Source: Alicyclobacillus sp. (lineage in GTDB: Bacteria; Bacillota; Bacilli; Alicyclobacillales; Alicyclobacillaceae). Taken from it: a DNA stretch of 58,468 nt. The position numbers and the translations under genes are program-made. Below the pieces are notes generated by a model. That model had not been told where the DNA came from. It did no database searches and saw only the letters and a list, made by a program, of their open reading frames with translations. The stretch is taken from NCBI RefSeq assembly GCF_023511815.1, contig NZ_JAIMAV010000007.1, positions 1 to 58,468 on the forward strand, read 5' to 3'. This document shows, in pieces, positions 8,146 to 15,002 of this stretch (within the stretch, counting starts at the first letter, position 1; every line of letters begins with the position of its first letter).

Positions 8146-9048
8146 TCAGTCGAGCGGTTGGCCCACATCCAGATTTCCCGGGGCAAGATGTCCCGGGGCC
8201 TCGTGGCCCTCGGACGAATCAGCGGCGCCCTGCACCCGCCACGGGTGGGTGTAGACGTGAAACCCGCCGCGGCGGGCGAAGCCGATGGCCGTCACCCCGG
8301 TCTCCTGCGCGATGTCGAGCGCCAGCGCCGTCGGCGCCGACTTGGCGATCACCATCCCCACGCCGATCTTGGCGACCTTCAGGAGCACCTCCGAGGACAG
8401 CCGGCCGCTGAACGCAATCAGGTGGCCGGAGACGTCCAGACCGTTTCGCAGCACGTGCCCGTACAGCTTGTCGAGGGCGTTGTGCCGGCCGATGTCCGTG
8501 CGCGCAAGCACCGTCCCCTCCGGGGTGCACAGGCTCGCCATGTGCACACCCCCTGTCTCCCGCCACAGATGCGCGCCCGCCTCCAGTTCCGCCATGCGCG
8601 CCAGGACGTCGTCCGGGCGGATGCGGACGGGATCGTCGATGCGGCGGACCAGCTGTGCGTCGTTGTAGTAGTAGAACATCTGCCGGCCCTTGCCGCAGCA
8701 CGAGCCGATGTAGCGTTTGTTGTAGAACGCCTGGTTGAACGTGACCTGCGTGGTGGTCTTGACCCGAGCGATCCCGCGGGCGCGCACCACCGTGAGATCC
8801 ACCAGCTGATCCGGGCGGCGAATGACGCCTTCGGAGGCGAGAAATCCGACGACCAAATCCTCCAGGTGGTCGGGCGTGCACACGACCGTCGCCATCTCCT
8901 GGTCCCCCACGAAAATGGTCAGGGCGTACTCGGAGGCGACCACGTCGTCCACCCGCTCAAAGCGGCCGTCCCGGTACACGACGAGCGACCGCGGTTGCCG
9001 GACGGGGAGCCACTCCGGCTCCCCGCATGACGCTGGATGTGCACCCAT
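8146..9048 (-). CDS. fdhD: Formate dehydrogenase accessory sulfurtransferase
   Basis: FdhD passes sulfur from a cysteine desulfurase to the molybdenum cofactor of formate dehydrogenase. The 300-residue protein has the conserved region SEGVIRRPDQL, a cysteine pair in GSCCGKGRQ that fits the sulfur-carrying loop, TGGVHMASLC, DIGRHNALDKL and the C-terminal GRLSSEVLLK. The ATG at 9048 has GAGGG nine bases upstream; an ATG at 9057 overlaps the stop of the preceding gene (ATGA) and is the alternative. It is the last gene of the formate operon. Confidence 0.93.
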   Translation of the reverse strand: MGAHPASCGEPEWLPVRQPRSLVVYRDGRFERVDDVVASEYALTIFVGDQEMATVVCTPDHLEDLVVGFLASEGVIRRPDQLVDLTVVRARGIARVKTTTQVTFNQAFYNKRYIGSCCGKGRQMFYYYNDAQLVRRIDDPVRIRPDDVLARMAELEAGAHLWRETGGVHMASLCTPEGTVLARTDIGRHNALDKLYGHVLRNGLDVSGHLIAFSGRLSSEVLLKVAKIGVGMVIAKSAPTALALDIAQETGVTAIGFARRGGFHVYTHPWRVQGAADSSEGHEAPGHLAPGNLDVGQPLD

Positions 9049-9053
9049 GTCTC

Positions 9054-9560
9054 TCATCCCTCTTCGCGGCCCGCCGCACGGCCCGCTTCGTCCATCGCCC
9101 GGCCGAGGCCCCTGAGCGTCCCGAACAGCGCGTGAAGGGCGCGGCTGACGTCGGGATCGGACAACCATTTCAACAGGCCGAACAGACCCATCGCCCCCTT
9201 CGGCGGATGGGCCAGCGCCTCCTCGGCTCCGGCCCGGGCGCCTTCCAACAGCGTTCCCAGTTTCTCCAGGTCCCACGCGGCACCGAGTTTCCCGAGCGCG
9301 ACGGCGTTGTTGACGAGGCGCAGGGCACCCGGTTGGCTGACCTGGGACACGAGGAGGCGCAGGAGGTCATCCCCCTTCTCCAGCGCGGCGGCGGCCAGCT
9401 CCAACAGGCCGCGGTCGTACAGGCCCGAAACCACCCGCAGCGCCTGCTCGAGGGCCTCCTCGTCCCGGGCGACGGCCGTCCGTAAACGCTCAAGGGCGGC
9501 GTCCTCCACAGCCTCGGGCGACGGCGCCCGGACTTCCAACCTGGGAATGGGCTTCGCCAT
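9054..9560 (-). CDS. DUF1641 protein of the formate dehydrogenase operon
   Basis: A 168-residue, mostly helical, leucine- and alanine-rich protein whose C-terminal GLFGLLKWLSDPDVSRAL is the DUF1641 hallmark. Relatives such as B. subtilis YrhD sit beside YrhE-type formate dehydrogenases and probably act as a partner subunit, but the role is not established as far as I know. It begins 3 bases after fdhA and overlaps fdhD, so the three are translationally linked. No cysteine or cofactor motif is seen. Confidence 0.85.
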   Translation of the reverse strand: MAKPIPRLEVRAPSPEAVEDAALERLRTAVARDEEALEQALRVVSGLYDRGLLELAAAALEKGDDLLRLLVSQVSQPGALRLVNNAVALGKLGAAWDLEKLGTLLEGARAGAEEALAHPPKGAMGLFGLLKWLSDPDVSRALHALFGTLRGLGRAMDEAGRAAGREEG

Positions 9561-9563
9561 GGT

Positions 9564-12500
9564 TCACACCTCCTTCACCAGATCGGACGCACGGCCGACG
9601 AGCGGCTGGTAATCCGCCCGCGCCCACTTTTTCTCCACCTGCACGCCCGGCTGCGGATTTGGATGGCCGAGGCGGAAGTTGCCCTTGACCAATACCGGTT
9701 GGGTCTGGAAATCCAACACCTCGAGGCGGACGTTCATCTCCTTGTACGCCGGCGTGTGCGTGGCCGTGTCCGACTCACTGCTGGTCAAAAGGTTGACCGC
9801 CTCCTCGTCCTTCGGCGAGTTCATCGGGACGTACAGCTCCCGGCCGCGCACGCGATCCGTCACCACCGCCCGCATCTTCACCGCGCCGAAGGGCGAGACG
9901 AGCCGGACCAGCATCCCGTCCTCGATGCCCCTCTCCCGTGCCAGTTCGGGAGAGATTTCGACGAACGTGTGCGGGGTCTTCTGCCGAATCCCCGGGACCC
10001 GGTAGGTCAGGTTCCCCTCGTGGAAGTGTTCGAGCAATCGGCCGTTGTTCAGATGCAGATCGTACACCTCGGGGGTCCTCACGGGCGGCGTCCAATCCAC
10101 CGGCACCAGCCGCGCCCGGCCGCCCGGCAGAGGAAACCCGTCCGCGTACAGCAGCGGAGAGTCCGTGCCGTCCGGCAACACCGGCCACTGAAGACTCCGG
10201 TACCCCTCCAGCCGGTCGTAGGTGGCCCCCTTCATCAATTCGGTGATGCCGCAGGCCTCCTCAAAGATCTCCCGCGGCGAAGCGTAGTGCCAGTTGGCCC
10301 CCAGGCGGTTCGCGACCAATTGGATGATCTCCCAGTCCGGTTTGGATTCTCCGAGCGGCTGAAGCACCCGGTACAGACGCTGGATCCGCCGCTCCGTGTT
10401 GGTGAAGGTCCCCTCCTTCTCCAGACTCGGCGCGGCCGGCAGGATGACATCGGCGAACTGCGCCGTCTTGGAGAAGAACACGTCCTGCACGACGAGAAAG
10501 TCCAGCTTCTCGAACGCCGCCTGCACGTAGTTGGCGTTGGCGTCCACGATGGCCATGTCCTCTCCCACCAGGTACATCGCGCGCACCTGGCCGGCGTGGA
10601 TGGCGTCGACCATCTGGTGGTTGTCCAGCCCGGGGTTCACCGGCAATGTGACGCCCCAAGCCCGCTCCCACTTCGCCCGCACCTCGGGATTGTCCACGCG
10701 CTCGTAGCCCGGCAGCATCGCCGGTGCGCATCCGAAGTCCCCCGCCCCCTGGACGTTGTTGTGCCCGCGCAGCGGGTACGCGCCGGTGCCGGGCCGGCCG
10801 ATGTTGCCCGTCACCAGAAGCAGGTTGCAGATGGCGGTGCTGGTGTCGGTGCCGCCCCTGTGCTGCGTCACGCCCATCGCCCAGCAGATGGCCACCGATC
10901 CCGCCGAGGCGATCATGTCCGCCACCTGCCGCAGCTGCGCCTGGGGAATCCCGGTCATGCGCTCGGCGTACTCGAGGGTGAAGGCATCCAGCGATTGCAC
11001 GTATTCGTCAAATCCCTCGACCCTCTCGGCGACGAACGTCCTGTCGTAACGGCCGGTGTCAATCAGGTGCCGCGTGACAGCCGACAGCCAGATGAGGTCG
11101 GTGCCCGGGCGCGGATGCAGGTGCACGTCCGCCCGCTGGGCCAGGTCGTTCTTGCGCAGGTCGGCCACGATGAGCTTTTGCCCGAATTTCTTCTTCGCCC
11201 TGCGGATGCGCGTCGCCAGCACCGGATGGGACTCGGCGGTGTTGGCCCCGACGATGATCACCAACTCGGCCTTGGCGATGTCCGCGATGGAGCCCGAGTC
11301 TCCGCCGTATCCGAGGGTGCGCCGCATCGCCTCGGTGGCCGGTGCCTGGCAGTAACGCGAACAGTTGTCGATGTTGTTGGTGTGCAGCACCGCCCGGGCC
11401 AGTTTTTGCATCAGGTAGTTCTCCTCGTTCGTCGTCTTCGACGATGAGATGAGCGCGATGCTGTCGTCGCCATACTGCCGGCGGATGGCCGTCAGCCGTT
11501 GTTCGATCACATCCAGGGCTTCATCCCAGGTGGCGGGTTCGAAGGCGTCGCCGCGGCGGATCAGAGGCTGAAGAATTCGATCCGGGCTGTTGACGAAATC
11601 CCACCCGAACTTCCCCTTGACGCAGGTGGAGATCTGGTTGACCGGCGCCTCCATCCGCGGTTCCACCTTGAGGATCTTGCGGCCCTTGGTCCAGACATCA
11701 AAGCTGCATCCGACACCGCAGTAGGTGCAAACCGTCTTCGTCTTCTGGATCCGGGCCTCCCGCAGGGCCGCCTCCGCCTCGGACACGGCGAAGATCTGCC
11801 GGTAGCCGGGTTCCACCCGCTTGGTGACGTCAATCAGGCCGCGCAGGGTGTCCGGTTCCATCCCGGTGAGAAAGCCCGCCTCGCCCACCATCGATTTCTC
11901 CATGAGGGCGTTGCATGGGCAGACGGTGACGCAGTGCCCGCACGAGACGCAGGAGGACTCGTGGATGGGCACATCATCGTCCCAGATCACGCGCGGGCGC
12001 TCCCGCGACCAGTCGATGGACAGCACCTCGCTGACCTGCAGATTCTGACAGGCCTCCACGCAGCGGCCGCAGAGAATGCATTGGTCGGGATCGTACCGGT
12101 AGAACGGGCCGCTGGCGTCGACCTCGTACGGCTTCGGTTCAAATGGATAGGCCTGATGGTCGATTTCCATCGCCATCGCGGTGTTGTGCACCACACAGTT
12201 GCCGTTGTTGTTGTCGCACACCGTGCAGTACAGCTCGTGGTTCCGAAGGATCCGATCCATCGCCTCCTTGCGCGCCCAGCGCGCCGCGACGGACTTGGTC
12301 CGCACCATCATCCCGTCGCGCACCGGGGTGCTGCAGGCGCGCACCAGCTCCCCGTCCACCTCGGCGATGCAGGTGTCGCACGTCTCAATCGGCCCCAGCG
12401 CCGGGTGATAGCAGACATGTGGAAACCGTTCGTCGCGCCCGGTGATGGCGTCCAAAAGCGTCGCCCCCGCGGGCACCGACACCGGTGCACCGTCGATGTA

Positions 12501-12710
12501 TACGGTGACGGGCATCGACCCTTCCGTGGCGGACGCGTGCGGCATCGGGATGGATCCGCGCGTCGTCCAGCGCGTCCCCCCCGTTTGAACGGACTCCGCG
12601 TCCCGCCCGGCATCCCCGGCGCCGCTTCGCGCGGCACCGCGGCGCGCCGCACCGCCGACGGCCGTGGCCGCGTGTTCGGACACCGCCTCGCGTCGCAGGT
12701 CCAAATCCAT
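9564..12710 (-). CDS. Formate dehydrogenase alpha subunit (YrhE type)
   Basis: Large cytosolic molybdo- or tungstoenzyme oxidising formate to CO2. After a non-conserved N-terminal stretch of about 70 residues come a [2Fe-2S] domain (CYHPALGPIETCDTC), a His-Cys cluster motif (HELYCTVCDNNNGNC), a two-[4Fe-4S] ferredoxin domain (CILCGRCVEAC, CVSCGHCVTVCPC), the bis-MGD domain with its own cluster (CTYCGVGCSF) and a C-terminal molybdopterin-binding domain. The metal ligand is cysteine (NCSRYCQAPA), not selenocysteine. The ATG at 12710 has GGGGGCG upstream; a later ATG (MPVTVYIDG) starts exactly at the conserved domain and is also possible. No separate NAD-binding subunit gene is present nearby. 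Confidence 0.93.
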   Translation of the reverse strand: MDLDLRREAVSEHAATAVGGAARRGAARSGAGDAGRDAESVQTGGTRWTTRGSIPMPHASATEGSMPVTVYIDGAPVSVPAGATLLDAITGRDERFPHVCYHPALGPIETCDTCIAEVDGELVRACSTPVRDGMMVRTKSVAARWARKEAMDRILRNHELYCTVCDNNNGNCVVHNTAMAMEIDHQAYPFEPKPYEVDASGPFYRYDPDQCILCGRCVEACQNLQVSEVLSIDWSRERPRVIWDDDVPIHESSCVSCGHCVTVCPCNALMEKSMVGEAGFLTGMEPDTLRGLIDVTKRVEPGYRQIFAVSEAEAALREARIQKTKTVCTYCGVGCSFDVWTKGRKILKVEPRMEAPVNQISTCVKGKFGWDFVNSPDRILQPLIRRGDAFEPATWDEALDVIEQRLTAIRRQYGDDSIALISSSKTTNEENYLMQKLARAVLHTNNIDNCSRYCQAPATEAMRRTLGYGGDSGSIADIAKAELVIIVGANTAESHPVLATRIRRAKKKFGQKLIVADLRKNDLAQRADVHLHPRPGTDLIWLSAVTRHLIDTGRYDRTFVAERVEGFDEYVQSLDAFTLEYAERMTGIPQAQLRQVADMIASAGSVAICWAMGVTQHRGGTDTSTAICNLLLVTGNIGRPGTGAYPLRGHNNVQGAGDFGCAPAMLPGYERVDNPEVRAKWERAWGVTLPVNPGLDNHQMVDAIHAGQVRAMYLVGEDMAIVDANANYVQAAFEKLDFLVVQDVFFSKTAQFADVILPAAPSLEKEGTFTNTERRIQRLYRVLQPLGESKPDWEIIQLVANRLGANWHYASPREIFEEACGITELMKGATYDRLEGYRSLQWPVLPDGTDSPLLYADGFPLPGGRARLVPVDWTPPVRTPEVYDLHLNNGRLLEHFHEGNLTYRVPGIRQKTPHTFVEISPELARERGIEDGMLVRLVSPFGAVKMRAVVTDRVRGRELYVPMNSPKDEEAVNLLTSSESDTATHTPAYKEMNVRLEVLDFQTQPVLVKGNFRLGHPNPQPGVQVEKKWARADYQPLVGRASDLVKEV

Positions 12711-12734: not shown

Positions 12735-13565
12735 TCAGACGTCCTGACCGGCCACCCGTCCGGCGGCGGCCGATGCGGCCTGCGCCGTCTCCTGTCCGCG
12801 CAGATAGCTGTACCAGTACACGCTGGCGACGAACAGCCAGCCACCGATGGTGTTGCCGATGAAGGCCCCAATCCACTCTACGACAATCTGCCCCCAGGTC
12901 ATGTGCGCACCGGCGAACAACCCGGCGGGCAGGAAGAACATGTTGGCCACCACGTGCTGAAATCCGATGGCGACAAACCCCATGATGGGGAACCAGATGG
13001 CGAAGATCTTCCCGACAATGTCCTTGGCCCCCATCGCCATCCACACGGCCAGGCAGACCAGCCAGTTGCACCCGATGGCCGACAGGATGGTCGGCACGAA
13101 TGGCAGCGCGGCCTTCGACATGGCGATGGAGATGGCCGCCTTGTCGTAGGGCGCCGTGGTGACCATGCGCGCACCGACGCCGAACACCCAGGCGACGAAC
13201 AGCGATCCCACGAGGTTCCCGATGGTCACGTAGAACCAGTTTCGCGCCAACCCGCCCAGGGTGGCCCGTTTGGCGTGTACGGCGATGGGTAGCGTCATCA
13301 TGTTGCCTGTGAGCAGTTCACCGCCCGCAATGACGACAAACATGAGGCCAATCGGAAAGACCGCGCCGCCCACAAGCGCTTTCAGTGTCCCGGCGCTGTC
13401 CGGCATCCCGGCGGTCACCCGGATGTCGAACAGGGCACCCAGGGCGATGAACGCTCCCGCCAAGAACCCGAGCACCAGCAGTTTCCCGGCCCCCGCGCGG
13501 GCCTTCTCCTCCCCCGCCTGCACCGCCGCTTCCGCGATCTCAGCCGGCTTTAAGAAATTGCTCAT
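12735..13565 (-). CDS. focA: Formate/nitrite transporter
   Basis: FNT-family pentameric channel, here most likely for formate. The 276 residues include six hydrophobic segments and the family motifs GGELLTGNMM, GCNWLVCLAVW and GFQHVVANMFF. The ATG at 13565 follows GGGAGG. It is the first gene of the operon, 24 bases before fdhA, which argues for formate rather than nitrite. A long leader with a terminator precedes it (13566-13762). Confidence 0.93.
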   Translation of the reverse strand: MSNFLKPAEIAEAAVQAGEEKARAGAGKLLVLGFLAGAFIALGALFDIRVTAGMPDSAGTLKALVGGAVFPIGLMFVVIAGGELLTGNMMTLPIAVHAKRATLGGLARNWFYVTIGNLVGSLFVAWVFGVGARMVTTAPYDKAAISIAMSKAALPFVPTILSAIGCNWLVCLAVWMAMGAKDIVGKIFAIWFPIMGFVAIGFQHVVANMFFLPAGLFAGAHMTWGQIVVEWIGAFIGNTIGGWLFVASVYWYSYLRGQETAQAASAAAGRVAGQDV

Positions 13566-13762
13566 CCAACTCCCTCCCCACGCTTTGCGTCGCTGGGGCC
13601 CGCGCGAAGATCCGCGGAAAACAAAAAGCGGCACAGAGAGATGACCGCAGTCATCCCCTGCGCCGCTTCGCTCACCCGCAGAATCCCTGCCGGCGGGCCA
13701 GTCAGCGTTGGTGTACGCGTAGCGGGCCCACGGATCCCATGCGTCCGCCACAGAACAACCCC
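13566..13762 (-). promoter_or_regulatory. focA leader with possible terminator/antiterminator switch
   Basis: About 190 transcribed bases separate the promoter from focA. They contain an intrinsic terminator (13619-13666). CCGCTACGC (revcomp of 13717-13725), earlier in the leader, can pair with GCGAAGCGG (revcomp of 13663-13671) at the 5' side of the terminator stem, with one A-A mismatch. That pairing would exclude the terminator. A 12-codon open frame (MGSVGPLRVHQR) covers the antiterminator strand but has only a weak ribosome site. I do not recognise a known riboswitch class. Confidence 0.55.
13619..13666 (-). terminator. Intrinsic terminator inside the focA leader
   Basis: Stem GCGGCGCAG/CTGTGCCGC with an inner GATGAC/GTCATC helix, then TTTTTGTTTT. 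It lies between the promoter and the focA start, about 60 bases before the ATG, so it must be passed or avoided for expression of the formate operon. Confidence 0.8.
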
Positions 13763-13792
13763 ATTATAGTCCGGACGGACCAGATCTGTGAA
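13763..13792 (-). promoter_or_regulatory. Sigma-A promoter of the formate operon
   Basis: TTCACA at 13787-13792, 18-base spacer, TATAAT at 13763-13768, reading towards focA. It begins only a few bases after the stop codon of the DUF2294 gene. Confidence 0.7.
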
Positions 13793-13798
13793 GTCCTT

Positions 13799-14176
13799 TT
13801 ATGATTCAGATGGACCATGTCCGTGGTCCGATAGGATGGGTTTCTCGAAGATGAACACGGAGACCCCCATGTCCTCCTCGACCTTGAAGTCGGAGAACAG
13901 GTACAGCAATCGGGAGCCGATCAGCTCCTCCATCCCCTCCGGCACCTTCTCCGCGTAGCGCTGTTGAATCATCTTCGTCCGCGCCGACCGGACCATCTCG
14001 GCCCCTTCCGGCGTGCGGCTGATGAACTTCTCGGTGGGGGTGAGGTTCCCGTGCAACACCGTCACCGCCATGTTGTGCACAAAATACGTGTGGATGCGCT
14101 CCGGGCCCTTGCCGAAGCACTCCCGGCGCACCCGCCGGACAATCTCGTTGAAGGCTTCCTCTTTGCTCCTCGGCAT
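13799..14176 (-). CDS. DUF2294 family protein
   Basis: A 125-residue soluble protein with the DUF2294 pattern: FGKGPERIHTYFVHNMAVTVLHGNLTPTE followed by a helical middle and a C-terminal strand pair (residues named in two parts here: FGKGPERIHTYF at about 21-32, MAVTVLHGNLTPTE at about 36-49). Function of the family is unknown. ATG at 14176 follows AGAAGGTG. It is the second gene after the PDO-like protein and shares its regulated promoter, so a role in thiol, sulfur or metal stress is a reasonable guess. Confidence 0.75.
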   Translation of the reverse strand: MPRSKEEAFNEIVRRVRRECFGKGPERIHTYFVHNMAVTVLHGNLTPTEKFISRTPEGAEMVRSARTKMIQQRYAEKVPEGMEELIGSRLLYLFSDFKVEEDMGVSVFIFEKPILSDHGHGPSES

Positions 14177-14245
14177 GCGACACCTTCTCCCGAAGGCGCA
14201 AACGGGCTGACGATGGAAGGGCGCGTCGCGCCCCAACCAGGACGT

Positions 14246-14896
14246 CTACATCCTTTGCGCCTGCATCACCTGTTCGAGCAACATGGATTCTGGAGCCGCC
14301 CCTTCCAACGAGAGCGCTTCGTCGTCGTTGATCACCGTCTTGGGCACCCCGTAAACATTGAACCGGTTCGCCCAATCCGGAAATTCGGTCGCCTCCACCA
14401 TGCTGGCGGTCACCAACGGAGACGCCATGGCAAACTGGTGAGCCAACCGGACGGCTGCCGGGCAGTATGGGCAGGTGGGCGTGACGAACACCTTGAGATC
14501 CACCGGTTGTTTGAGTTCCGCCAATCGCGCGCTCGTCTCGGGGGACAACCCGGATTCCCCTTCGGCAATCATCCGGATGTCCTCCAACAGGGTCGCGAAT
14601 TCATATCCGGTCGGAGCTCCGAAAAATCGGATGCCGTACGACTCGCCCTGCTCATCCGTCAACACGATGGCCGGCGCACGGTCGATTCCGTAGCGCTGTG
14701 CCATCTGTTCATCCGTGTACAGATTGTACACCTCAAGCGTGAGGAACTCACTGAGTTTCTCCAAGCTTTGCAATAGATGTCGAATGTCCGGACAGGTGGG
14801 ACAATCGAGGCTCGTCTCAAAAAATTTGATCACGACCGGATGATGAACGTCCTTCAACCGGGTTCGAATGGCTTCCTCCTGGCTGTTGGTGAACAT
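14246..14896 (-). CDS. PDO-like double thioredoxin/glutaredoxin protein
   Basis: A 216-residue protein with two thioredoxin folds. The first half has CPTC at about residues 33-36 and a cis-proline region RAPAIVL; the second has CPYC at about 138-141 and YGVPKTVIND. This is the layout of protein disulfide oxidoreductases (PDO) of thermophiles and of AhpF-type N-terminal domains, which reduce or exchange cytosolic disulfides. No flavin domain follows. The ATG at 14896 follows GGGAGG. The promoter carries a CsoR/CstR-like palindrome, suggesting induction by copper or reactive sulfur. Confidence 0.85.
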   Translation of the reverse strand: MFTNSQEEAIRTRLKDVHHPVVIKFFETSLDCPTCPDIRHLLQSLEKLSEFLTLEVYNLYTDEQMAQRYGIDRAPAIVLTDEQGESYGIRFFGAPTGYEFATLLEDIRMIAEGESGLSPETSARLAELKQPVDLKVFVTPTCPYCPAAVRLAHQFAMASPLVTASMVEATEFPDWANRFNVYGVPKTVINDDEALSLEGAAPESMLLEQVMQAQRM

Positions 14897-14972
14897 GCAC
14901 TCATCCTCCCTTCCGTGGTGTACGACAAAAGCGCGGCGATGAACGAAACCGACAACCCGCCTGTACGCGCTT

Positions 14973-15002
14973 ATCATACCCCTTAGGGTATATAACCGTC
15001 AA
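14973..15002 (-). promoter_or_regulatory. Promoter with CsoR/CstR-like operator in its spacer
   Basis: TTGACG at 14997-15002, 18-base spacer, TATGAT at 14973-14978, reading towards the PDO-like gene. The spacer and -10 overlap the palindrome ATACCC-CTTA-GGGTAT at 14976-14991. CsoR and CstR repressors (copper, sulfane sulfur) bind sites of the form ATACCC-N4-GGGTAT. No csoR-like gene is present in the window. Confidence 0.65.

Follow-up and report, generated by a model that had tools for sequence, protein, structure and literature searches.

The focA-like gene of the window (the whole stretch of 58,468 nucleotides analysed here) is preceded by a promoter, a leader of about 130 nt between promoter and terminator hairpin, and the hairpin itself. 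This raises the question of whether the leader is an RNA that decides if the operon is transcribed and, if so, to what signal it responds. The whole arrangement is carried by the minus strand, in the order promoter, leader, hairpin with a T run, focA, fdhA, a DUF1641 gene and fdhD. The first gene (12735-13565, with its ATG at 13565) encodes a formate/nitrite transporter (PF01226, E 8.8e-80) whose product scores above the cut-off of TIGR00790 and below that of TIGR04060, the focA equivalog. Behind it lie fdhA, for the formate dehydrogenase alpha subunit (9564-12710; TIGR01591, 839 bits, cut-off 666; start codon uncertain), the DUF1641 gene (9054-9560; PF07849, 39.8 bits, cut-off 21) and fdhD (8146-9276; TIGR00129, 218 bits, cut-off 141), whose true start probably lies downstream of that of the open reading frame. 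Directly upstream of the promoter, on the same strand, is a gene of the MpsC family (13799-14236, PF10057), preceded by a protein disulfide oxidoreductase gene (14246-14977; TIGR02187, 269 bits, cut-off 185).

The promoter-like sequence TTCACA-18-TATAAT (13763-13792, minus strand) agrees with the consensus at 11 of 12 positions, and the 3.5 kb scanned hold three promoter-like sites of any kind, against 0.6 ± 0.7 in shuffles. Folded from 13756 to 13596, the leader reaches -96.1 kcal/mol, compared with -69.0 ± 4.1 kcal/mol for 200 dinucleotide shuffles (z -6.6), none of which was as stable. The predicted fold includes the terminator hairpin (13623-13668, minus strand), with a stem formed by 13668-13650 and 13645-13626 and T's at 13627-13623; a simple terminator scan reported no sites, probably because the stem contains a bulge. 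Both the good promoter and the structured leader with a strong terminator that the original prediction had placed ahead of focA are thus present. A promoter, a structured leader and a terminator before the first gene are the features by which a transcription attenuator with an intrinsic terminator would be recognized in sequence, and the leader RNA is most likely such an attenuator.

Conservation of the structure upstream of focA in relatives had been set beforehand as a check, and it was found in 18 focA leaders. Ahead of focA, the two other genomes of the window's genus carry leader DNA with 75% identity to that of the window. FocA is encoded by 24 of the 41 genomes of the family, and the same leader architecture lies upstream of 18 of these genes; the stretch upstream of focA lacks such a leader in five of the 24 (G018, G019, G024, G025 and G030), and in G034 (L023) the contig ends 98 bases upstream of focA, so that presence of the leader there is not readable. 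The conserved RNA consists, in this order, of a hairpin P1, a long hairpin P2 and the terminator. P1 is also long, with GUGG...CUAC at its base and CAU...GUG in its upper part; in the window (13719-13751, minus strand) GTGGCGG at 13751-13745 pairs with CCGCTAC at 13725-13719, the inner CAT at 13741-13739 pairs with a GTG within 13733-13728, and the hairpin shows covariation. On the 3' side of P1 follow a linker of variable length, a UGG, P2 in the form GCC-UGUA...UGCA-GGC, and the GGC(A/G)CA that opens the terminator. The P2 core of the window (GCCGGCAG / CTGCGGGT, 13674-13694, minus strand) is imperfect, with a G-G mismatch, and its lower stem (13666-13700, minus strand), made of TGGC 5' of the core and GC and AA 3' of it, has one G-A mismatch.

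Fitted to a model, and hence leaning towards the structure of that model, an alignment of P1, P2 and terminator from 26 sequences (A5) has standard pairs in 94.8% of its cells and changes on both sides in 19 of 33 pairs; no shuffle among 500 attained any of five measures, and pairing fell to 25-59% when the 3' partners were slid. A second alignment fitted in the same manner, and leaning the same way, covers P1 and an extended P2 in 27 matches, 26 of them distinct (A10), and shows two-sided changes in 13 of 28 pairs, again unmatched by any of 500 shuffles. In the lower part of P2, for example, its columns 68-120 hold A-U nine times, U-A eight times, C-G four times and U-G once, and columns 72-114 hold UA 18 times, CG five times and UG once. 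An alignment made by MAFFT alone, with no model fit (A2), gives compensatory changes at 11 of 29 RNAalifold pairs. Covarying structure in the leaders of functionally linked genes is what would be expected of a riboswitch, and these leaders possess it. Conservation takes the form of patches inside helices, and the loops, the linker and an inner loop are variable.

The same alignments bear on the idea that the element acts as DNA or through a peptide. P1 is an inverted repeat right after the promoter, as an operator might be, and an open reading frame (12735-13751) runs through the leader of the window in frame with focA, as a leader peptide might. However, P1 keeps a G-U wobble in 23 of 26 sequences and a U-G in 25 of 26, which would be mismatches in a DNA symmetry, and reading frames are not conserved, so that an operator or a leader peptide is very improbable indeed. 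The original prediction had also considered translation-coupled control through a 12-codon frame. This frame does exist in the window (13740-13702, MGSVGPLRVHQR followed by a stop), but it is not conserved among relatives: in both congeners the frame that starts at this ATG has no stop at codon 13 (in L002 it runs to 105 codons, 1559-1876), and in other genera the leader lacks an ATG at that position, which makes translation coupling through that frame unlikely. Leader-peptide attenuation was rejected, the short frame being lost already in the congeners.

How far the RNA extends beyond focA was examined with successive models. The first (R1) was built from 13 of the 18 focA leaders, with L027, L028, L029, L036 and L039 omitted for poor MAFFT alignment (A3); seven low-scoring reverse-strand matches (A4) were not used. 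The second (R2, from A6) took 17 of 26 sequences, without the near-duplicates L049, L050, L051, L053, L054, L055, L058 and L070 and the shortened L078, and the third (R3, from A11) took 15 of 26, none from the window's genus, omitting L057 and L059 as well. The search with R1 found the RNA at 26 places in 23 of the 41 family genomes, every one of them at a formate locus: 18 ahead of focA, three ahead of fdhA and five ahead of a SatP-like transporter gene, one of the five with a transposase gene in between. Half of these places (13 of 26) were outside the R1 training set, and eight of the 13 were new with this search, G030, G031 and G032 contributing a pair each and G020 and G022 a single one; each of the eight is again at a formate locus. 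In 22 of the 26 places the leader is preceded, at a distance of 9-16 nt, by a -10-like box, and a T run (at least five T in eight) is present at 25. Applied to the whole 58-kb window, R3 gave a single match at E<=10, which is the leader itself (13753-13657, 55.9 bits, E 9.8e-11), and a laxer scan of 12 genomes found no second site at E < 0.9.

The places without focA are informative as to what the RNA follows. In G030, G031 and G032 two divergent copies of the RNA flank the MpsC gene, one heading fdhA (above the TIGR01591 cut-off in G032, with the same domain set in G030 and G031) and the other heading a gene for a small membrane protein. The copy in G020 heads the same SatP-like protein, and in G022 the transposase gene (L078:5757-7355) lies between the RNA and the SatP-like gene, with fdhD behind, divergent. 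In this G022 copy, P2 is shortened. The five SatP-like genes are at L077:4795-5388, L078:7487-8080, L074:6922-7512, L075:6441-7031 and L076:4413-5003. Their product, of about 197 aa, belongs to a membrane protein family that replaces FocA at some formate loci; among the five genomes in which the RNA heads this gene only G030 has a FocA, which is distant (50%) and encoded elsewhere. Among curated families its best match is PF01184 (GPR1/FUN34/YaaH), with E 0.0013 and below cut-off; NF038013 (AceTr) gives 16.9 bits against a cut-off of 50, and sequence searches of the PDB returned nothing. An AlphaFold model from five sequences (pLDDT 50.6) was left unused, whereas one from 17 sequences (pLDDT 80.5) had SatP chains as all six of its best PDB matches (TM 0.67-0.73, probability 1.00); on this model the protein is predicted to have the fold of SatP, an acetate/succinate permease. 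Since genes for small-acid transporters of two unrelated families, as well as for formate dehydrogenase, stand behind this RNA, their common denominator is formate.

An order-wide search with R2 (E<=0.1) found the RNA in 24 of the 59 genomes, and the sole genome outside the family is G054, whose leader (L119:5424-5530; 26 bits, E 0.078) lies exactly between MpsC and focA. In this variant P1 is almost perfect and P2 largely missing, a pattern that would fit P1 being the most ancient or the most indispensable element of the RNA. Samples of the class and the phylum, with 10 candidates scored per genome, gave 18 of 398 and 1 of 398 genomes, all in the window's own family, in searches that may miss distant or weak members (G020, G022 and G032, for instance, are absent from the class list). 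The conserved structure, the terminator and the restriction to formate loci are computational observations.

No entry of Rfam 15 matched anywhere in the window at its gathering score, in line with the original prediction that the leader belongs to no known riboswitch class. With the threshold relaxed to E<=10, a segment of 601 bases gave only implausible weak matches (animal microRNAs, snoRNAs); eight related loci at E<=5 gave two weak matches, neither at the leader; and the leader matches none of the Rfam families, ZTP, THF, Moco and T-box included. Nothing that we recognised as this leader RNA came up in the open-access literature on riboswitches or attenuation at formate genes or in Alicyclobacillus. 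It is a real structured leader RNA of a formate regulon, previously uncatalogued in Rfam 15. One published parallel is the fhsA motif (WRC-63-1), found at genes for formate-tetrahydrofolate ligase and described as a weak candidate for a riboswitch, with 52 representatives from Leptotrichia and environmental DNA (PMC11109978). As far as that description goes, it resembles the formate leader in its formate-linked gene and in combining a hairpin with a terminator, but the gene and the organisms are others, and the comparison that sets the two apart is one of descriptions. The Moco RNA motif is described from genes for molybdenum-cofactor enzymes (PMC2408646), whereas the formate leader has no Rfam match and none of its 26 sites is at cofactor or molybdate genes. 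With terminator-type riboswitches in general the leader shares a structured RNA near the transcription start, a terminator as expression platform and a single metabolic regulon; unlike them, it has no obvious conserved unpaired pocket, and its ligand is putative. From all this we would put at about three in four the probability that the leader belongs to a new class of cis-acting RNA gating transcription of the genes for formate transport and oxidation.

From sequence and predicted folds we infer conditional termination, a direction of switching, an anti-terminator pairing and formate as signal. Transcription would start just ahead of P1, and P1 and P2 would then fold. For the window, the calculation gives -77.1 kcal/mol for the terminated fold and -64.8 for a forced anti-terminator; as the terminated form is about 12 kcal/mol better, the default should be off, the strong hairpin ending transcription upstream of focA, and something must hold the other form. 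When import, export or oxidation of formate is needed, P1 and P2 would be held in a form that occupies the 5' arm of the terminator, and the polymerase would read into focA-fdhA-fdhD. The much greater stability of the terminated fold would also suit a plain hairpin with terminator, that is, the end of an upstream transcript or a small RNA with constant partial read-through. But P1 and P2 covary and stay at the formate locus even when the transporter family differs, and the gap from T run to focA is only 54-72 nt in the window's genus and G035, and such a plain terminator is quite unlikely.

As to which bases would form the anti-terminator, the original prediction had paired CCGCTACGC (13725-13717), in the 3' arm of P1, with GCGAAGCGG (13671-13663) of the terminator stem. 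The two can pair in the window (-11.7 kcal/mol), but the pairing is not conserved: in raw energies, the best duplex between these arms reaches -16.2 kcal/mol in the window, -11.5 in the two congeners and -16.1 in G035, and lies between -1.5 and -8.9 kcal/mol in the other 23 rows. Strong only in those four, this anti-terminator was set aside. The likeliest route for the proposed attenuator would be a downward extension of P2, in which a conserved GC(U) before the UGG base-pairs with the GGC at the start of the terminator. The pairing comes from folds of leaders cut before the terminator 3' arm, and in the window it would join CGCTG (13703-13707, minus strand), as 5' arm, to CGGCG (13661-13665, minus strand), which is common to the proposed anti-terminator and the terminator. 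In 14 of 26 leaders all three bases pair with p>=0.5, where shuffling of the 12 nt before UGG would give 6.7, and at least one of the three does so in 22 of 26, where shuffling would give 17.5; the remaining four leaders (L055, the fdhA-side copies of G031 and G032, and G020) do not show it, and the three proposed pairs have no two-sided changes in A10. Because of this shuffling control, the P2 extension has moderate support as a candidate anti-terminator, and the formate riboswitch considered below is held at somewhat less than even odds.

What would hold the read-through form is the remaining part of the question. A protein-independent riboswitch with formate as its ligand, shifted by formate towards read-through, is not far short of an even chance. 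It would explain why all 26 places are at formate loci and why one RNA is common to two unrelated transporter folds and fdhA; the lack of a second site in the laxer scan points the same way, as does the lack of a common regulator, the best-known anti-terminator proteins, ANTAR and CAT_RBD, being absent from most RNA-bearing genomes. Against it, there is no strongly conserved unpaired pocket, and the conserved letters lie in helices, which would also suit a protein. Moreover, the phrase 'formate riboswitch' was not found in the open-access literature, and formate does not appear in the main text of a review of riboswitch ligands (PMC9971707).

A formate-responsive RNA-binding protein that grips P1 and P2, causing anti-termination or termination, is a possibility that we hold at odds distinctly under even. 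In addition to the P1 wobbles, P2 keeps a G-U wobble in 22 of 26 sequences; along P1 the 5' patches GUGG and CAU keep a spacing of 6 nt in 26 of 27 rows, and about one helical turn separates the wobbles, as for contacts on one face. The length of the P1-P2 linker is variable. ANTAR- and BglG/CAT-type anti-termination uses hairpins that overlap the 5' arm of a terminator. The formate leader likewise has hairpins overlapping the terminator 5' arm; in contrast to those systems, neither the length nor the sequence of its P1 and P2 loops is constant. An ANTAR-dependent attenuator was rejected, an ANTAR protein being encoded in just 3 of the 23 RNA-bearing genomes, as was anti-termination of the BglG/SacY (CAT_RBD) type, with a CAT_RBD protein in 7 of 23; these counts weigh against the protein reading, and none of the loci inspected contained a gene that we recognised as a regulator.

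MpsC, the constant neighbour, is not a good candidate for the protein either. Its gene adjoins the RNA in 21 of the 23 RNA-bearing family genomes, and also in G054, but is absent beside it in G020 and G022. The same subfamily stands beside formate dehydrogenase or fdhD genes in loci of Peribacillus, Pseudogracilibacillus, Fictibacillus and Sporosarcina (including L123-L125, L133 and L137), and R2 did not find the RNA in the 23 loci of these other Bacilli (L123-L145). A role as partner of the RNA is weakened by both observations, and since the subfamily adjoins formate dehydrogenase and fdhD genes that lack the RNA, MpsC is better read as a probable component of formate metabolism. The link of MpsC to formate metabolism is strong and unexplained.

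Instead of formate, the signal could be low internal pH or weak-acid stress, or the supply of molybdenum or tungsten cofactor. FocA and SatP are carriers of small acids, Alicyclobacillus-type bacteria are acidophiles, and FdhA requires a molybdenum/tungsten cofactor. A cofactor signal would, however, lead one to expect sites at cofactor or molybdate genes, where none of the 26 was found, and a Moco match is missing in Rfam. Against an acid signal, paralogous SatP-like genes elsewhere in the family have no P1 in a pattern search, one that also missed three of the five RNA-bearing copies, and model searches likewise gave no RNA at these paralogues. We regard acid or cofactor as unlikely signals. 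Formate is reported to have a minimal inhibitory concentration of 0.31 mM at pH 3.5 for two Alicyclobacillus isolates (PMC10562698), and this toxicity at acid pH means that a tight switch makes sense.

The RNA is compact and well bounded (98 model positions) and serves a single regulon, and a small set of candidates should therefore suffice to test its signal. If formate is what binds, the RNA would represent a separate ligand class and could serve directly as a formate sensor; that it is the first natural RNA to sense formate directly, opening formate dehydrogenase as well as formate transport in acidophilic members of the Bacillota, is a tentative proposal that falls well short of even odds, and on that equally tentative proposal two rigid hairpins with conserved wobble patches would replace the classical pocket. 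If a protein binds it, the leader would reveal an anti-termination system beyond the ANTAR and CAT_RBD families. The finding also presents a SatP-like and an FNT transporter as interchangeable within a single formate system, and it ties the MpsC proteins to formate dehydrogenase.
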